DNA from: Geothrix sp. 21YS21S-2
GTDB taxonomy: Bacteria > Acidobacteriota > Holophagae > Holophagales > Holophagaceae
Direction of reading: 5' to 3'
Length of the DNA: 64,000 bases
Assembly (NCBI RefSeq): GCF_030846775.1
Contig: NZ_CP132910.1
Location: 3,475,001-3,539,000 of the forward strand
Below are positions 27,894 to 36,135 of the stretch, piece after piece; position 1 is the first letter of the stretch, and each line of letters starts with the position of its first letter. The notes beneath the pieces are model-generated. The model was given only the letters and a program-made list of their open reading frames with translations. It was not told where the DNA came from and ran no database searches. The position numbers were made by a program, and so were the translations under genes.

Positions 27894-28298
27894 CTAGTCC
27901 TCCAGCACGGGTTTGACGTCCAGGCCGGCCTTGAAGGCGGCCAGGGCCTCCAGGAAGGCCACCCGGTCCTTCATGGTCACGAAGAACATGCCCACCTTGC
28001 GGCGGTCGGTGGTCTTGCGGAGCTTGGGGTTGCGCTTGCCTTCGAGCCGCTCGCGGATCATGAGGTTGCCGGTGCGGTAGTGGCAGTCCCCGATGGCGCA
28101 GCCGCACACGAAGGTGGCGTCGGCGCCGTTGGCCAGGGCGGCCTCCATGAGCGTGGGCTTGACCATGCCCGAGCAGGGCACGATGACGAACTTGGTCTCC
28201 GGGTCGTCCAGCAGGGCCTTGTTCGCGTCCAGCATGCGCTCCACGGGGAGGCTGCGCTCGCACACGAAACCGATGATGGTGCGCTTGGTTTCTGACAT
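27894..28298 (-). CDS. FlpD/MvhD-like iron-sulfur electron-transfer protein
   Basis: A 134-residue member of the methyl-viologen-reducing hydrogenase delta (FlpD/MvhD) family, which passes electrons to heterodisulfide-reductase-type partners through a [2Fe-2S] cluster. Conserved pieces: IGFVCERS near the start, VPCSGMVKPTLMEAALANGADATFVCGC and the family hallmark GDCHYRTGNL (about 67-76). The first Cys pair is reduced to one Cys. No hydrogenase, HdrA or formate dehydrogenase gene is nearby. It lies directly after the cytochrome b-ferredoxin gene (0 spacing), so the ferredoxin domain of that protein is its likely partner. Confidence 0.88.
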   Translation of the reverse strand: MSETKRTIIGFVCERSLPVERMLDANKALLDDPETKFVIVPCSGMVKPTLMEAALANGADATFVCGCAIGDCHYRTGNLMIRERLEGKRNPKLRKTTDRRKVGMFFVTMKDRVAFLEALAAFKAGLDVKPVLED

Positions 28299-29531
28299 TC
28301 AGGCTCCCTTCTTCACGAGGGCCAGGAGATCGGCCTCCAGGGTCTTGGAGTGCAGCTCGGGCAGCTCGATGGCCTGGAAGGGGCAGGCCCCCACGCAGAT
28401 GCCGCACTCGCTGCACCGGGCCGCCTGCACCACGGCGATCTGCTTGAACTTGCTGCCCGGGGCCCGGTCCACCATGGTGATGGCCTCGAACGGGCAGTCC
28501 AGGCTGCAGAAGGTGCAGCCCGTGCACTTGGCTTCGATGACCTCGGCGATGTTGGCCCGGCGGTCCTTGGGGTAGAAGGGCGCCACGCACAGCAGCACCG
28601 TGGAGCCGCCCAGGATCAGCCAGGTCCAGGTGGTGCCCACGTTCTGGATGAGCCAGTAGGGGAACATGTACCAGGCGTCGTAGCGGATGGTCTCCACCAG
28701 GGTGCCGATCTGGGCCGGGGCGTCGCTGGCGATGTAGGCGGCCTGCGCGGCGATGCGGGGGTCATGGCCGTACTTGGCCAGCAGCTCGTGCGTGATGTTG
28801 ATGGCCGGCAGGGTGCCCGCGGCCAGGAGGATGAAGCCCAGCAGCAGGAAGTTGGTGGCCCGGCTGGGGGTGACCACGGGTTCCTTGAGGCGGATGAAGT
28901 GCATCCACACGAGGAAGAAGATGAACACGGCCCCGCCCACGTGGAAGAAGAGGAAACGGGTGAGGGTGTAGTCCGTGATGCCTTCGCCGCCCACCAGGAA
29001 GCTCGACAGGGCCGCGCCGATGACGGGCACCCCGTCGAAGAGGTGCTGGGTGGCCACGACGATGTAGTAGGCCCGGGCGTCCCACACCAGGAGGTAGCCG
29101 GTGAGCCCCACGAAGAGCACGAAGATGAGCAGGCCCACGCCCGTGACCCAGGGCAGCCAGCGCCAGGCGCGGTGCCGGTCCGTGAAGTAGACCCGGAACA
29201 TGTGCAGGAGGGTGACGATCATCATGGCCGCCGCGCCCCAGCGGTGGATGCCGCGCACCACGGCGCCGTAGGGGATGCCCGCGGCCAGGTTGATGGGGTC
29301 GCCCGGGGTGGGGAGGGCGGAGATGTAGTTCACGCTGGACCAGGCCCTGTCCAGGGTGGGGATGTAGTACATCCACAGCAGGATCCCGGAGAAGATGAGG
29401 AACCAGAAGGTGTAGAGGGGGAGCGCCCCGTGGAAGTACAGGGGGTTGTGCTCCTGGGTGGTGAGGAAGTTGACCAGCTTCTCGAAGCTGACCGTGAGGC
29501 TCTTGGTGAGGCGCAGGAATTTGCGGTACAT
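28299..29531 (-). CDS. cytochrome b fused to a 2[4Fe-4S] ferredoxin domain
   Basis: A 410-residue membrane protein. The N-terminal part is a cytochrome b with both haem ligand pairs intact: H96/H110 in GIHRWGAAAMMIVTLLH and H197/H211 in FFHVGGAVFIFFLVWMH, each 14 residues apart. Further helices include a DAWYMFPY segment (285-292) where Qo-site PEWY would lie. The C-terminus carries two ferredoxin motifs, CTGCTFCSLDCP (C336-C346) and CSECGICVGACP (C373-C383), probably cytoplasmic. I start at ATG 29531 (MYRKFLRL); the longer frame would overlap the preceding gene. It may move electrons between quinone and the FlpD-like protein. Confidence 0.92.
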   Translation of the reverse strand: MYRKFLRLTKSLTVSFEKLVNFLTTQEHNPLYFHGALPLYTFWFLIFSGILLWMYYIPTLDRAWSSVNYISALPTPGDPINLAAGIPYGAVVRGIHRWGAAAMMIVTLLHMFRVYFTDRHRAWRWLPWVTGVGLLIFVLFVGLTGYLLVWDARAYYIVVATQHLFDGVPVIGAALSSFLVGGEGITDYTLTRFLFFHVGGAVFIFFLVWMHFIRLKEPVVTPSRATNFLLLGFILLAAGTLPAINITHELLAKYGHDPRIAAQAAYIASDAPAQIGTLVETIRYDAWYMFPYWLIQNVGTTWTWLILGGSTVLLCVAPFYPKDRRANIAEVIEAKCTGCTFCSLDCPFEAITMVDRAPGSKFKQIAVVQAARCSECGICVGACPFQAIELPELHSKTLEADLLALVKKGA

Positions 29532-29539
29532 GTCGTCCC

Positions 29540-29824
29540 CTACTGGTCCAGGGTGGTGCTCTGCTTGCGCAGGTAGGCGGCGCCCACTTCGGCCAGGGCC
29601 GCGACCACGAAGGCCCAGCCCAGCCACTTGACCACGTCGAATTCGCGGAAGGGTTCCTTGTTGGTGGTCTCCAGGCGCATCTGCGCCGGCACCGGCACGC
29701 CCGGGGGCGGGCCCACCTCGGTGAGCACGCTGTGCAGGATGAAGTACCCGAAGATGCCGAGGCCGGTCAGCAGGAAGATCACACCGAAGATGGGTCGCTT
29801 GCGCATGGGCTCAACCTTGGTCAT
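29540..29824 (-). CDS. two-helix small membrane protein of the respiratory gene run (94 aa)
   Basis: Two predicted membrane helices (FGVIFLLTGLGIFGYFI and VVKWLGWAFVVAALAEVGAAYL) separated by a periplasmic-looking loop with GPPPGVPVPAQMRLET. No family recognised. The start is ATG 29824, which overlaps the upstream gene by 14 bases; ATG 29806, five bases after the upstream stop, is a good alternative. Lies between the two cytochrome b genes and is probably a structural subunit. Confidence 0.75.
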   Translation of the reverse strand: MTKVEPMRKRPIFGVIFLLTGLGIFGYFILHSVLTEVGPPPGVPVPAQMRLETTNKEPFREFDVVKWLGWAFVVAALAEVGAAYLRKQSTTLDQ

Positions 29825-30102: not shown

Positions 30103-31677
30103 TCAGGCTCCCGCAGCCTTGGGCTTGGCCTTGGCCAGGGCCGCCAGCTCCTCGGCCTTCTTGCGGCGCCCCCACCGGCCCAGGCCGATATAGATGCCGG
30201 AGGCGATGATCCCGAGCCAGGCGGCCACGTGCACCAGCCACAGCTCCATGCCCGGCGGCTTTCCGGGGCCCTTCTTGCTGGTGAGCCAGAGGTTCAGGCC
30301 GGGGCGGTTCTTTTCCAGCCACTCGAAGGCCATGTCCGGGGTGGCCAGGGGGTTGGCCTGCTGCAGCCGGGCCAGGACCTTGGGCATCTCCGTCTTGCCG
30401 AGCACGTTCCACTCCCGGATATCGCCGAAGTAGTGGTACAGGGTGTTGGCGGACATGCACACGAGGATGAAGGCCACGAAGAAGAGGTGGAAGGTCTCCC
30501 ACCAGCGCTTCTGGTCCCGCCGCATGACGTAGGCCCAGTCCTGGAGGTAGCCCGCCAGGAGGAAGCCGCCCATGGAGAAGTACCACAGCGGCGCGTCCCG
30601 GTGCAGGTCGGCGATGCCGTTGAGGATGAGGAAGCTGAAGACGATGAAATAGATGAGCCCGCCGATGCCGATCCAGTTGAAGATCTGGCGCTTGCCCCAT
30701 TCCCGCTCGGGCCGCCGGTCCAGGAACATGGAGGCCAGCACCAGGAAGGGGATCGCCACGGTGAGCACGGTGGCCAGGTAGGGATCCTGGAGCTTCAGGA
30801 AGTGATACATGGCCAGGAAGTACCAGTCCGAGAGGATGGGGTTGGGGGTCACCTCGGGGTTGGCGGGGCTGCCCTGGGCCGCGGGGATCATGATGGCGAT
30901 GGCCAGGATCACGCCGAAGACCGCCAGCTTGGCCCAGTGGCTGATGTTCATGCGCTTGAAGCCCAGGCGGTACACCCGCAGCTCGAAGAAGATCATCGGG
31001 ATGAAACTGAGCATGAAGTGGAAGGCGTAGAACCGGGTCACGGTGGCCGGACCGATGCTGGTGCCCCCCAGGAGGATCTGGGCGGTGGTCTTGCCCTGGT
31101 TGGTCCAGTTGATGAAATCGCCGCCCGGGAGCCAGCTGGGGTTCTGGTCCAGGTAGGTGGGGAAGGTGGCCATGACCTTGGTGGCCCACAGGGCGCGCTG
31201 GTTCCAGATGAGGAGGTAGCCGGTGAGGCCGGAATACATGCCGATGATCAGCAGCAGCAGGGCGATGATGAAGGTGAACTCGTTGCCCTGCTTGTATTCG
31301 CCCGTGAACCACATGCGGTAGACGCGCATGGTGGCCAGGATGATGAAGGCGTCCGCCCCGTACTTGTGGAGGCCGCGGGTGAGGGAGCCGATGGGCACGG
31401 GGCCCCAGCGCCAGTTGTGCTGGATCCGCTCGATGGAGTGGTAGGCCTGGTCGGTGACCGGCACGTAGTAGATCATCAGCACCACGCCGCTGAGGATCAC
31501 CAGCATCCAGACCCAGTACCACATGCCCCCGAGGGTGTACCAGGGATTGGACTTGGCCTGTTCGGTGCGGCCCTCGTCGAACAGCTCCATCTTCGTCCAC
31601 CGCTCCTGGAACCACTTGAGGAAGGTGGCGGGGGCGTCGAAGAGGCCCCGGATGAGATAGGGAATGGCCTTAACCAA
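30103..31677 (-). CDS. cytochrome b subunit with both haem bH ligands replaced by Arg
   Basis: A 524-residue bc-type cytochrome b with a long C-terminal part. Helix B reads GLHKYGADAFIILATMR: H104 is present, but the residue 14 further on, normally the second His, is R118 (CGC). Helix D reads AFHFMLSFIPMIFFELR: H220 is present, and the partner position is R234 (CGG). The retained pair corresponds to haem bL; both ligands of haem bH are lost. A Qo-site-like SDWY lies at 283-286. The C-terminal helices and a soluble stretch (about 430-480) precede a final helix and a basic tail. It overlaps the Rieske gene by 8 bases, so they form one unit. Confidence 0.93.
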   Translation of the reverse strand: MVKAIPYLIRGLFDAPATFLKWFQERWTKMELFDEGRTEQAKSNPWYTLGGMWYWVWMLVILSGVVLMIYYVPVTDQAYHSIERIQHNWRWGPVPIGSLTRGLHKYGADAFIILATMRVYRMWFTGEYKQGNEFTFIIALLLLIIGMYSGLTGYLLIWNQRALWATKVMATFPTYLDQNPSWLPGGDFINWTNQGKTTAQILLGGTSIGPATVTRFYAFHFMLSFIPMIFFELRVYRLGFKRMNISHWAKLAVFGVILAIAIMIPAAQGSPANPEVTPNPILSDWYFLAMYHFLKLQDPYLATVLTVAIPFLVLASMFLDRRPEREWGKRQIFNWIGIGGLIYFIVFSFLILNGIADLHRDAPLWYFSMGGFLLAGYLQDWAYVMRRDQKRWWETFHLFFVAFILVCMSANTLYHYFGDIREWNVLGKTEMPKVLARLQQANPLATPDMAFEWLEKNRPGLNLWLTSKKGPGKPPGMELWLVHVAAWLGIIASGIYIGLGRWGRRKKAEELAALAKAKPKAAGA

Positions 31678-32305
31678 CGCCGCCTCCTTCCGTGCCGGTG
31701 ATCAGGATCTGCCCGTCCTTGATGTCGAAGGACATGGTGCGCGGGGGCCGGGGCGCCGGGCCCGAGACCACCTTGCCCGGCAGCAGTCCCTGGAGGTTGA
31801 CTTCCGTCTTGCGGGTGGGGTCGTACACCGAGAGGTGGCAGGGGCACGCGAAGTAGGGATGCGTGGGTGCGGGGGGCTTGTAGTTGTACCCGCCGGCCAG
31901 TTCCTCGGGGCTCTTGACGAAGTTGAACGTGCAGCCCAGGTGCGGGCAGATGCGCTGCACGACGACGAACTTCGACTTGGGATCCTTCGGATCCGCGAGG
32001 TCGTCCGGAAGGCGCACCACGAAGCCGGGTATCTTGGCTCCCTGGATCTTGCGGCTGGAGTACTCCACGGATTTCCGGATGTAGATGAACTCCTTGAAGT
32101 CCCAGGGCTGGGTGAGTTCGCTCAGGGCGGCCACGATCTGGATGCTGCTGCCGGCCTCGTCGGGGGGGGCCACCAGGCCCTTGACGCCCCCGACGGTGGT
32201 GGGCTTGAAGTACCGGATCAGGGCACTGGCGGCCAGCACGGCGCCCCCGAGGATGGGGATGCTCGTGATGGCCTTCAGGAAGAGCCGGCGCTGGTTCTCC
32301 TTCAT
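31670..32305 (-). CDS. Rieske [2Fe-2S] protein
   Basis: The high-potential iron-sulfur subunit of a bc-type complex. N-terminal anchor after twin Arg (RRLFLKAITSIPILGGAVLAASALI), suggesting Tat export. Cluster boxes: CPHLGC (C120, H122, C125) and CPCHLS (C154, C156, H157), giving ligands C120, H122, C154 and H157 and a C125-C156 disulfide. The spacer between the boxes is longer than in mitochondrial proteins. Start chosen at ATG 32305, with AGGAG 6 bases before; a GTG precedes it in frame. It lies between the dihaem cytochrome and the bH-less cytochrome b. Confidence 0.94.
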   Translation of the reverse strand: MKENQRRLFLKAITSIPILGGAVLAASALIRYFKPTTVGGVKGLVAPPDEAGSSIQIVAALSELTQPWDFKEFIYIRKSVEYSSRKIQGAKIPGFVVRLPDDLADPKDPKSKFVVVQRICPHLGCTFNFVKSPEELAGGYNYKPPAPTHPYFACPCHLSVYDPTRKTEVNLQGLLPGKVVSGPAPRPPRTMSFDIKDGQILITGTEGGGVG

Positions 32306-32314
32306 CACAATCTC

Positions 32315-33283
32315 CTATTCGTGCTCATAGGTGCGGCTGCGGACGCCGTCCACCAGCATCCAGCGCTGGTCTTCGGTGAGGACGCCGCGCCAGCTGGGCA
32401 TGGCGGACCACTGGTGGACGAACTGCTGGAGCGACTCGGGCGTCATGGAGGCCCGGACGGAGGCGGGGATGGTCTTGAACTGGCCGCCCTCGGAGATGCG
32501 CCAGAAGAGGAAGGCGTCGGTGCTCTGGGCGAGGGCCTTGCGGTTGGAGAAGTCGAAGGGCGGCGGGTTGAGGGTCCGGGCCAGGGGGCCGTTGCCCTGG
32601 GCGGTGTCCCCATGGCAGACCGAGCAGTTCTGGCCGTACAGGTCCCACACGTCCTTGAACTGGGTGGGGCTCGCGGCGGCGATGGCGCGGCTCCAGACAT
32701 AGTAGACGGCGTTCCACACCGGGACCGGGTCCCCGGTGGCCACCAGCTGGTCGCCCCGCAGGTCCTTGATGGCGCGCATCCAGCCTTCGCCGGGCTTGCC
32801 GCCGGGGCCGGGGTGCTCGAAGAATCCCTGGGAGGGGTCGCCCTCCAGCTTCGGGGCGCGGCCGTGGGCGATGAGCCGGTACAGCTGGCTGGGGGTGCGC
32901 TGGAAGCGCCAGGCGCGGCTGGTGAAGTCGGGGCCGACCTTGGGGGGGACCACGGGCCACCGGCCCTCGGCGGCGAGCTCCTTCACCTTCGCGCCGTAGT
33001 CGGCGTGGGTGGGGGGCAGGGCGGCCTGCTTCCGGATGTCGGCGGCTTCGGCGGCCGTGAGGAGGGTGCCGTGGCAGGAGGCGCAGTTGGCGGTGTAGGT
33101 GGCCCTGCCCTTGAGGGCGGAGGGGAGGCCGAGGGGGTACGGGGTCTCGGCGCCGGGCTCCAGCCCCGCGGGGGCGGCAGAAGCCGAGAGGACGACGTCC
33201 TTGCCGGCGCCGCGGCGGGTGGACAGGCCCTTGTCGGCGCATGCCAGGAGGAGGATGGGCAGGAGGAGGAGGTATTTTCGCAT
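32315..33283 (-). CDS. dihaem cytochrome c lipoprotein
   Basis: A 322-residue exported protein with lipobox LLAC (Cys 15) and two haem c sites, CASCH at 67-71 and CSVCH at 220-224. Sixth ligands could be Met in the SAMPSWRG region and in the first domain. No cytochrome c1 gene is present in the run, so this protein may take electrons from the Rieske centre and hand them to the CcoO/CcoP-like subunit. The start is ATG 33283; a TTG in frame just before is less likely. Confidence 0.9.
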   Translation of the reverse strand: MRKYLLLLPILLLACADKGLSTRRGAGKDVVLSASAAPAGLEPGAETPYPLGLPSALKGRATYTANCASCHGTLLTAAEAADIRKQAALPPTHADYGAKVKELAAEGRWPVVPPKVGPDFTSRAWRFQRTPSQLYRLIAHGRAPKLEGDPSQGFFEHPGPGGKPGEGWMRAIKDLRGDQLVATGDPVPVWNAVYYVWSRAIAAASPTQFKDVWDLYGQNCSVCHGDTAQGNGPLARTLNPPPFDFSNRKALAQSTDAFLFWRISEGGQFKTIPASVRASMTPESLQQFVHQWSAMPSWRGVLTEDQRWMLVDGVRSRTYEHE

Positions 33284-33292
33284 CAACCGCTC

Positions 33293-33464: not shown

Positions 33465-34673
33465 TCACTTGGCCGGGGCGGCATGGACGGGAGCCTTCTC
33501 GTAGTCGCTCTCGTTGCCCTGCAGCTTGCCCAGGCCCTTGTTCTGGGCGACGTACTTGAGGAAGGCGGTGAGGGTGAGCCGCTGGTTGGCGTCCAGGGTG
33601 TACTCCCACCGGGGCATCTGGGTGCCGGGCACGCCGCGGCTGATGCGCCAGTACCAGGCGTCCGTGGTGTAGGTGGCGAACTTGTCCTCGTCGAAGTTGG
33701 CGGGCCGCTTGGTCATGGTGAAGGCTGCCTGGCCCTTGCCGTTGCCGGCCACGCCGTGGCAGGGGGAGCACTGGTTGTTGAACAGGCCCTTGCCGTAGTT
33801 GGCCAGGAGGCGGTTCTTGTCCGAGATCTGGCCCTCCTTGAAGCTGTTCTCCACCCAGGCCCGGGCCTCGGGGTCCAGGTTGCGGGCCTCGTCCAGGGCC
33901 TCCTTGTTCGGGAAGGCGGGGGTGGCCAGGCCCTGGAGGGCGCCCTTGGCGTTGGCGGCCTCGTGGCTGGAGCCGTACATCAGCTCCTCGATCTCGGCGG
34001 TGTACTTGAAGGGCACTTCCGAGTGCTCGCCGTAGAGCTCCTCGTTGAGGGCCCGCTGCTGGGCCACGTCCAGCTTCCACATGGCCACCTTCTCGGTGAC
34101 GCCGTTCAGGTCGCCGCCCTCCCAGGTGTAGTCGCGGACCTTGGCCCACTTCGTCTCGCCCGTGGCCTCGTACTTCGCCTTGCCGTCCTTCACGTCCAGG
34201 GCGCGGGTGCCGTTGGGGCCCAGGCTCTGCAGGAAGGCCGTGAGGTCCGTGAGCTCCTGCTCGGAGAGGTAGTCGTAGCGGGGCATGATGGAGCCCGGCT
34301 TCACGTACCGGGGGTTCTTGTGGTGGAGCATGTGGTACTGGTCCGGGAACTTCCCGCCGATGTTGGCCAGGTCGGGACCGGTGCGCTCGGATCCCAGGAG
34401 GTGGTAGGCGTCGTAGTAGTAGTCGGAGGACTTGGAGCGGCGGCCGTGGTCCCAGTCCTGGGGGCGGCTCACCATGGAGTGGCAGTACCAGCACCCCTCG
34501 CGCTTGTAGATCTCCCGGCCCCGCTGCTCCTGGGCGGTGTAGTCGCGCAGGTCCCTGGGTTCGGGGGGCTTGAAGGTCCACCGGGGCACCAGGACCACCA
34601 CGAAGATGATGGAGGCCATGATGAGGGTGAGCCCGAGGGCCGGGTAGAGGTAGTTGGCTCGCTGCGTGGTCAT
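33465..34673 (-). CDS. CcoO-type cytochrome c with an added CcoP-like c domain
   Basis: A 402-residue protein with an N-terminal membrane helix (YPALGLTLIMASIIFVVVLVP). The first haem site CWYCHSMVSRP (61-71) and the following GSERTGPDLANIGG and NPRYVKPGSIMPRY segments are diagnostic for CcoO. Instead of ending near residue 200, the chain continues through a linker to a second haem domain, CSPCHG (302-307), with GTQMPRWEYTL supplying a Met ligand, as in CcoP. This appears to be a CcoO-CcoP fusion in one chain, delivering electrons to CcoN. 8 bases separate it from the CcoQ-like gene. Confidence 0.9.
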   Translation of the reverse strand: MTTQRANYLYPALGLTLIMASIIFVVVLVPRWTFKPPEPRDLRDYTAQEQRGREIYKREGCWYCHSMVSRPQDWDHGRRSKSSDYYYDAYHLLGSERTGPDLANIGGKFPDQYHMLHHKNPRYVKPGSIMPRYDYLSEQELTDLTAFLQSLGPNGTRALDVKDGKAKYEATGETKWAKVRDYTWEGGDLNGVTEKVAMWKLDVAQQRALNEELYGEHSEVPFKYTAEIEELMYGSSHEAANAKGALQGLATPAFPNKEALDEARNLDPEARAWVENSFKEGQISDKNRLLANYGKGLFNNQCSPCHGVAGNGKGQAAFTMTKRPANFDEDKFATYTTDAWYWRISRGVPGTQMPRWEYTLDANQRLTLTAFLKYVAQNKGLGKLQGNESDYEKAPVHAAPAK

Positions 34674-34683
34674 GTATGGACTC

Positions 34684-36135
34684 CTAGCTCTGCACGCGGG
34701 CGGTGGCGGTGGCGGGCGCGAGGGTGGCGGGCTCCTCCAGGGGGCCCTCCACCGAAGCCTCGGCGAACACCAGGGTCTTGACCACGTTGTAGAGGAACAG
34801 CACCTGGCCCAGCACGATGAGCAGCCCGGAGAAGGCCCGCATCAGCATGAAGGGGGCCACCATGATCACGCCCCGGTAGACGGGGATGCCCTCCTCCCAG
34901 GCCGAGGCCTGGATGAGGCCGCCCACGGTGAGCGCCACGATCATGAGGATGGTGCCGATGAGCGAGAGCCAGTAGTGCGCGTTGGCCAGGCGCCTCGAGT
35001 ACCACTGCCGGCCCGAGACCCGTGGCGCGACGTAGTAGATGGCGCCCCAGCCCACGAACCCGAAGGTGCCCAGCAGGGCGAAATGGGCGTGGCCCACCAC
35101 CCAGTGGGTGAAGTGGAGGTACCAGTTGATCCACCGGGTGGCCTGGAAGGGGCCCGTGAAGCAGGTCAGCAGGTAGAAGCCCAGGGCGGTGATGAAGAAC
35201 CGCAGGGGCAGGTGGGTGGCCATCATCGACCACTTCCCCTTCATGGTCAGGAAGAAGTTCACCAGCACGCTCATGACCGGCACAAGCAGCATCACGGAGG
35301 AGATGACGGCCACGGCCTTGAGCCACTCCGGCACCGGGCTCTGGAGCAGGTGGTGGGTGCCCGTGGGGGTGTAGAACATGGCGATGGTGCTGAAGCCCAC
35401 GATGGACAGGAGATGGGAGTAGAGCGGGTTCCGGGTGATCTTGGGCAGGAAGTAGTACAGCAGGCCGATGCCGTTGGTGGTGAACCAGAGGCCCAGGATG
35501 TTGTGGCCGTAGAACCAGTTCGCGATGGCGTCGCCGATGCCGGGCACGGCGAAGAACACCCGGTTGCCGATGAGGTAGACCACGGGGAACCAGAGGGTGG
35601 TGCCGGCGATGTACCAAATGGACACGTAGAGCTGCTTCTCCTTGCGGTTGAGGACCGTGCCCCACACGAGGACGATGTAGAGGATGAGGGCGCCCATCAT
35701 GGCGATGTCCAGGAACCAGGGGAGCTCGGCGTATTCGCGGCCCTCGGTGATGCCGTTGGTGAGGCAGAGGATCCCCGCGACGATGACGGCGTTCCAGGCC
35801 ACCATGAGGACGTTGCCCCAGCGCTCGCTGTAGAGCCTCGTGCGGCACAGCTCGGGGATGACGTAGAAGATGGCGCCGACGTTGGCCATGGAAATGAAGC
35901 CGAAGGCGACGACGTTCACGTGGGTGGGGCGCAGGCGCCCGAACTGGAGCTGCGGCAGGTTGTGCACGAGGTCGGGCCAGTAGTATTCCGATGCGGCGAC
36001 AAGGCCGAACAGGGTTCCCACCAGGACCCAGACGGCGGCGCTGATGAGGAAGCGCCTGGAGGCGCTGTGCTCCTCGTCCGCCCACGCGGCCAGCCGGCTG
36101 TCCCAGTTTTTGGTAAGTTCAACGCTTTGTGCCAT
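34684..36135 (-). CDS. ccoN: cbb3-type cytochrome c oxidase subunit I
   Basis: Catalytic subunit (483 aa, 12 helices) that reduces O2 and pumps protons. Visible ligands: H72 in RPTHVNVVAFGF (low-spin haem b), H210 in FYGHNILGLWFTT and the pair H260-H261 in TPTGTHHLLQ (CuB), and H348/H350 in HWVVGHAHFALLG (haems b and b3). Y254, six residues before the His pair, matches the helix VII Tyr of cbb3 enzymes. It is the first gene of the 14-gene minus-strand run, 10 bases before the CcoO/P fusion. cbb3 oxidases have high O2 affinity, which suits microaerobic life. Confidence 0.96.
   Translation of the reverse strand: MAQSVELTKNWDSRLAAWADEEHSASRRFLISAAVWVLVGTLFGLVAASEYYWPDLVHNLPQLQFGRLRPTHVNVVAFGFISMANVGAIFYVIPELCRTRLYSERWGNVLMVAWNAVIVAGILCLTNGITEGREYAELPWFLDIAMMGALILYIVLVWGTVLNRKEKQLYVSIWYIAGTTLWFPVVYLIGNRVFFAVPGIGDAIANWFYGHNILGLWFTTNGIGLLYYFLPKITRNPLYSHLLSIVGFSTIAMFYTPTGTHHLLQSPVPEWLKAVAVISSVMLLVPVMSVLVNFFLTMKGKWSMMATHLPLRFFITALGFYLLTCFTGPFQATRWINWYLHFTHWVVGHAHFALLGTFGFVGWGAIYYVAPRVSGRQWYSRRLANAHYWLSLIGTILMIVALTVGGLIQASAWEEGIPVYRGVIMVAPFMLMRAFSGLLIVLGQVLFLYNVVKTLVFAEASVEGPLEEPATLAPATATARVQS

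Follow-up and report, generated by a model that had tools for sequence, protein, structure and literature searches.

The Rieske/cytochrome b complexes bc1 and b6f are built on two copies of one cytochrome b, in which four His residues ligate haems bL and bH. In known cytochrome b dimers the haems bL lie near each other, and the in vivo relevance of haem bL-bL transfer in the complex III dimer is an old dispute that is based largely on engineered enzymes. We take the Geobacter Cbc complexes to be a possibly similar system to the one described below. PMC4330944, citing Swierczek et al. 2010, describes a cross-inactivated bc1 from Rhodobacter, an asymmetric fusion in which one half carries G158W (no Qo) and the other H212N (no haem bH), and in which Qo connects to Qi only through haem bL-bL transfer. 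For the Rieske/cytochrome b complexes of anammox Kuenenia, an exit of one bifurcated electron through Fe-S clusters on the n-side has been proposed, for NAD(P)H formation; these complexes were modelled there as homodimers, with the full set of expected b haems and with an NAD(P) oxidoreductase (PMC12954380). Melainabacterial petB and petC genes that adjoin ccoN and C-type oxidase genes have been described as encoding b6f subunits (PMC6349859, in the part available). That locus is very probably the operon treated here, and the same part of the paper makes no mention of missing haem ligands, a second cytochrome b or FlpD. The open-access literature, to which the search was confined, yielded no report of cytochromes b without haem bH, of a complementary pair or of the operon's FlpD gene. 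It is possible that the haem loss was noticed earlier in the work of Soo et al. 2017/2019 on melainabacterial complexes III and IV, which is cited in PMC8235220.

The operon lies in the window, a stretch of 64,000 nucleotides analysed here from the single 5.25-Mb contig of Geothrix sp. 21YS21S-2, and its nearest named homologues are found in the Holophagaceae (Acidobacteriota). Nine genes run head to tail on the minus strand from 36135 down to 27894 with overlaps or short gaps between them (Table 1). The first, ccoN, encodes the motifs YGHN, HHLL, GHAH and RPTH, and the features of a C-type (cbb3) oxidase are present both in these His motifs for haem and CuB and in the CxxCH of CcoO. Two CxxCH motifs occur in 30/30 homologues of the fused ccoO-like protein and in 30 of the 31 homologues of the dihaem cytochrome c, where the single exception is probably a truncated copy at a contig end; the dihaem protein probably accepts the electrons of the Rieske protein. 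Both Rieske cluster motifs, CPHLGC and CPCHLSVY, are intact and kept in 32/32 homologues, and the end of the Rieske gene overlaps the start of the gene for cytochrome b1. The final residue of the second motif is either Tyr or Phe among homologues (CPCHLSVY/F), an exchange that shifts the redox potential in known Rieske proteins. The small membrane proteins s1 and s2, whose position is conserved within the Holophagaceae, had no match in a Pfam search. The longest reading frame of cytochrome b2 opens at GTG 29627, but ATG 29531 was taken as the start because it is favoured by the homologues and by the end of the preceding gene. The stand-alone flpD, with the PDB relatives 5odc_D and 7bkb_F, is the last gene of the operon in every genome read. 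With C-type oxidase subunits and FlpD as neighbours, the cluster appears to combine complexes III and IV in one module with an Fe-S outlet on the n-side. It shares with bc1 and b6f the cytochrome b fold, a Rieske protein, a c-type cytochrome, a Qo-type motif and the haem bL ligands, and differs from them in its proposed dimer with a single haem bH, located in a different subunit, as well as in having a ferredoxin domain and FlpD, both expected on the n-side.

Table 1 Features of the operon in the window and of genes flanking the operon in one Vampirovibrionia group
Feature	Coordinates	Strand	Basis
ccoN, C-type (cbb3-like) haem-copper oxidase subunit I	34684..36135	-	PF00115 E 4e-87, TIGR00780 1.6e-90
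ccoO-like monohaem c domain with fused second cytochrome c domain	33465..34673	-	PF02433, PF00034/PF13442
Dihaem cytochrome c	32315..33286	-	PF13442, PF00034
Rieske [2Fe-2S] protein	31670..32308	-	PF00355, NF010001
Cytochrome b1	30103..31677	-	PF00033, PF13631, PF00032
b1 H104 codon CAC, haem bL ligand	31366..31368	-	DNA reading
b1 R118 codon CGC, helix B haem bH ligand position	31324..31326	-	DNA reading
b1 H220 codon CAC, haem bL ligand	31018..31020	-	DNA reading
b1 R234 codon CGG, helix D haem bH ligand position	30976..30978	-	DNA reading
b1 SDWY, PEWY-equivalent Qo motif	30820..30831	-	DNA reading
Small membrane protein s1, one clear hydrophobic segment	29811..30101	-	hydropathy
Small membrane protein s2, two hydrophobic segments	29540..29824	-	hydropathy
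Cytochrome b2 with C-terminal 2[4Fe-4S] domain	28299..29531	-	PF00033, Fer4 families
b2 2[4Fe-4S] ferredoxin domain, eight Cys	28356..28544	-	Fer4_7, Fer4_21
flpD, stand-alone MvhD/FlpD-type Fe-S protein	27894..28298	-	PF02662 E 2.4e-18
AprA/AprB-like genes	L066 2298-4432; L067 14927-16854; L068 824-3000; L069 165-2310
DNA methyltransferase-like gene	L066 13697-14992; L067 1240-2529; L068 12222-13499; L069 13283-14554

Cytochrome b1 matches the cytochrome b N-terminal domain (PF00033, 1.6e-20), and its best relative in the PDB is the cytochrome b6 of b6f. The original prediction held that Arg replaces His at both haem bH ligand positions of b1, R118 and R234, and that the remaining His residues belong to haem bL. 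Both codons proved right on the DNA, and a profile alignment to b6f cytochrome b6 (1vf5, 2zt9, 7r0w, 1q90) places R118 at the helix B haem bH His. The second His of helix D is found in canonical cytochromes b at +14 (the spacing of bc1) or +15 (that of b6f); since b1 has R234 at +14 and V235 at +15, the ligand loss holds whichever spacing applies, and the b6f spacing was rejected as a rescue for the missing His, with V, F or I at position 235 among the homologues. The homologue counts cover 32 operons from Holophagaceae and Vampirovibrionia, with other phyla hardly sampled. Position 118 is Arg in 26/32 and Lys in 6/32, and position 234 is Tyr in 25/32 and Arg in 7/32. A search for close relatives with His at both positions, which would speak against the prediction, found none, His being present at either position in 0/32 operons; canonical cytochromes b in the same scan, including the second one of the window genome, retain theirs. 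R or K at 118 is accompanied by R at 234 in 11 Holophagaceae homologues and by Y at 234 in those from Vampirovibrionia. The haem bL ligands H104 and H220 are kept in 32/32, so that b1 has two of the four His of a bc1/b6f cytochrome b, and among the 32 homologues no further conserved His occurs besides them. At b1 position 139, the site of the n-side helix C Gly that packs against haem bH, Gly is found in 7/32; E232 is invariant (32/32). Loss of the haem bH ligands in b1 is thus confirmed, at the level of sequence, as a family trait that is neither an error nor a one-off. Haem bH itself appears to be absent and its loss permanent; the empty bH pocket may be occupied by a pair formed between R/K118 and the invariant E232.

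Cytochrome b2 retains all four His, H96, H110, H197 and H211, each in 32/32 homologues. H110 and H211, which had been called intact, are present at those numbers when counted from ATG 29531. The packing Gly of helix C (G131) likewise occurs in 32/32, and the eight Fe-S Cys are conserved in 32/32 homologues with one position at 31/32. An extra invariant His, H34, lies at the n-side end of helix A beside the haem bH packing Gly, and is a candidate residue of an n-side quinone site. As had been stated, the Qo-like SDWY is kept together with the Rieske gene, and it occurs in 32/32 b1 proteins. The cd1 segment has a mean majority identity of 94% in b1 (20/27 positions invariant) versus 59% in b2 (4/27), and the ef/PEWY segment 88% (13/25) versus 46% (0/25), compared with an overall baseline of 69% for b1 and 62% for b2 over residues 30-320; the limits of both segments were drawn by hand, and the segments and the helix C Gly were assigned by alignment to known cytochromes b. 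At the PEWY position b2 shows variants such as DAWY, DWFY and DLLY, with a partial xDWF type in many Vampirovibrionia, and since part of a PEWY-like motif is kept, the Qo site of b2 may still be partly active. Overall, the pattern suggests a complementary constraint in which Qo is conserved in b1 and haem bH in b2, with a relaxed Qo site in the latter. Six membrane helices precede the ferredoxin domain of b2, which should therefore lie on the n-side, as should FlpD; this placement follows the standard cytochrome b topology, hydropathy alone being too coarse.

The operon occurs in Holophagaceae and in Vampirovibrionia, a group of non-photosynthetic Cyanobacteria. By profile search, the b1 family was detected in 78/382 Vampirovibrionia genomes, and among Acidobacteriota in 7/396 sampled genomes, all of them Holophagaceae (E 1e-40). 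The gene order of ccoN, ccoO-c, dihaem c, Rieske, b1, small membrane protein(s), b2-2[4Fe-4S] and flpD is identical in all loci of both phyla that are long enough to judge. A scan of GTDB contigs with two peptide patterns gave 11 loci and a Vampirovibrionales genome with the same operon (R and Y at 118 and 234); it missed most Vampirovibrionia members and is thus uninformative on absence elsewhere. Plasmids gave no match when searched by DNA, and only ordinary cytochromes b of <30% identity when searched by protein. Phylogenetic analysis of the N-terminal domain separates b1 and b2 into two clades of similar branching, with the Holophagaceae as one group in each. The mutual relation of b1 and b2 is unsure because long branches meet in the tree, and the correlation of their pairwise distances (r 0.95) is expected for co-inherited genes of one operon. 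As b1 forms a single clade, the loss of the bH ligands is consistent with a single event at its base. The distribution over two phyla suggests that the whole operon was transferred between them, and melainabacterial complexes III and IV have earlier been inferred to have undergone lateral transfer (PMC8235220). In one Vampirovibrionia group the operon is directly adjoined by AprA/AprB-like genes (adenylylsulfate reductase), the AprA scoring over the cut-off of PRK06854 and under that of aprA TIGR02061, and on the side opposite to these lies a conserved DNA methyltransferase-like gene (DPYSGKGT, TSPPYF).

A search for PF00033 proteins in the carrier genomes G012, G020, G027, G014 and G028 found b1 and b2 alone. 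Several Holophagaceae, among them genomes of 1.2 Mb, hence lack any further bc-type cytochrome b, and the pair is most likely their complex III. G012 and G020 measure 1.2 Mb at 96-97% completeness, and seem to fit the streamlined freshwater Acidobacteriota lineage with ccoNOP of PMC11561045. The split pair is unlikely to be a relic when it survives as the sole bc-type cytochrome in such genomes.

It is proposed that the operon codes for a Rieske/cytochrome b complex of asymmetric build, which is linked to a C-type oxidase and has a b1:b2 heterodimer at its core instead of a homodimer. We regard this as fairly probable. The original prediction of a rebuilt complex, with the second cytochrome b replacing the missing haem, gains support from the linkage of b1 and b2, from their complementary conservation and from the genomes with no other bc-type cytochrome b. 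Menaquinol would be oxidised at the Qo site of b1 with the Rieske protein, which would pass the first electron through the c haems to the oxidase. The second, low-potential electron would travel from haem bL of b1 across the dimer to haem bL of b2, and then through haem bH of b2 to the n-side. There it could reduce quinone at a Qi-like site of b2, giving an asymmetric Q cycle, and/or enter a ferredoxin-FlpD relay, the two outlets being about equally likely. Operon linkage by itself is no proof of physical contact between b1 and b2, and AlphaFold2 on 11-row alignments gave models too poor to use (mean pLDDT 45.6 for b1 and 41.1 for b2), so that we infer the heterodimer from genes and conservation. 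A stricter form of the proposal holds that the complex is a natural obligate complex III in which all low-potential electrons are forced from b1 to b2 via haem bL-bL and leave by ferredoxin and FlpD to a cytosolic acceptor and not to quinone. This must be considered rather unlikely; if true, quinol bifurcation would drive a cytosolic reduction coupled to oxygen respiration.

The proposed heterodimer would have the same wiring diagram as the cross-inactivated bc1, where one half is without haem bH; in b1 this corresponds to the ligand loss, and the Qo site of b2 is relaxed. The latter enzyme is an artificial fusion with point mutations, whereas the b1/b2 pair would be natural, obligate and old, consist of two diverged genes and include an added Fe-S unit on the n-side. 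As in the Kuenenia complexes, n-side Fe-S clusters would lead off from the b haems (PMC12954380), but here the operon has no flavoprotein subunit and one haem bH is lost. The work of complex III appears to be split between two different cytochrome b proteins, an arrangement shared by two distant phyla. If so, electrons would be expected to have to cross between partner proteins, which was enforced before only in an engineered enzyme, and the haem bL-bL question becomes testable because a natural complex would make that step unavoidable. The arrangement also suggests that splitting the two halves between paralogues is one path which the evolution of complex III can take. The pair may be the sole complex III of some oxygen-respiring bacteria, including the streamlined freshwater Acidobacteriota if the match to PMC11561045 holds.

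Taken by itself, b2 has the look of a dihaem membrane cytochrome to which a ferredoxin domain is attached, and its link with b1 is seen at the level of genes. The products may therefore form two units that share no more than their transcription: a b1 homodimer oxidising quinol at Qo with an incomplete Q cycle and, apart from it, a unit of b2, ferredoxin domain and FlpD that reacts with quinone or lets electrons in. This is improbable, given that the linkage of b1 and b2 is invariant over two phyla and that the two proteins show complementary loss of functions; moreover, the electrons on haem bL would find no outlet in a b1 homodimer, which would carry two Qo sites. An equally small chance is given to the n-side Fe-S unit serving as an electron entry, where a cytosolic donor would feed FlpD and the ferredoxin domain and electrons would flow by way of b2 and b1 into the quinone pool or towards the oxidase. 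In methanogens FlpD-type proteins connect cytosolic flavoproteins with other complexes, and the AprA/AprB-like genes that flank the operon in some Vampirovibrionia could encode a plausible cytosolic donor. However, AprA was not found in 11/14 carriers, and its presence in only 3/14 rules out AprAB as a general donor. Full-length HdrA was found in 0/14 other carriers searched, where six short matches proved to be the b2 ferredoxin domain, and it is thereby ruled out as the general partner of FlpD. The near-frozen Qo segments and the intact Rieske protein point instead to quinol oxidation, and electron flow from the n-side to the p-side would dissipate the membrane potential. The FlpD family member next to a 2[4Fe-4S] domain is reminiscent of MvhD/FlpD in Hdr-type complexes, but unlike Hdr-linked FlpD it is attached to a Rieske/cytochrome b operon and most carriers tested have no full-length HdrA.

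Tyr-ligated haems exist in other proteins, and the prevalence of Tyr at 234 and Arg at 118 raises the question of whether b1 binds a haem at the bH position via unusual ligands, for example Tyr234 and Arg118 in Vampirovibrionia as a catalase-like Tyr/Arg pair. This is very improbable, as position 234 is Arg in Holophagaceae including the window, Arg is no established haem ligand, b1 is devoid of other conserved His and its helix C packing Gly is mostly replaced. Decay of the b1 gene or sequencing error, which would explain the unusual ligands and nothing else, has practically no chance of being correct and is refuted by the homologues, by a long intact frame strongly conserved across two phyla and by several genomes that have no complex III candidate besides the b1/b2 pair.

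In the window genome the split pair is a second system, because an ordinary Rieske/cytochrome b set is also present. The ordinary cytochrome b, with all four His (G000:C1:2819253-2820539), lies near its own ccoN in a conventional operon (G000:C1:2815461-2821028; L081 4462-10028) of Rieske protein, the four-His cytochrome b with APWY, multihaem c, ccoN and ccoO, followed by a small protein and then by an NADPH/Fe-S oxidoreductase resembling GltD and a CcoG-like protein. Two more COX1-family proteins with long reading frames, G000:C1:3558967-3560283 (903 aa) and G000:C1:295102-296445 (790 aa), are possibly quinol-dependent nitric oxide reductases. HdrA is present in the window genome and in its genus relative G001. 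The former also contains an Hdr-Flx-like cluster (G000:C1:3875092-3881706; L082 5093-11707) with HdrA, HdrB, HdrC, FlpD and Flx-like subunits, whose FlpD is separate from that of the operon.
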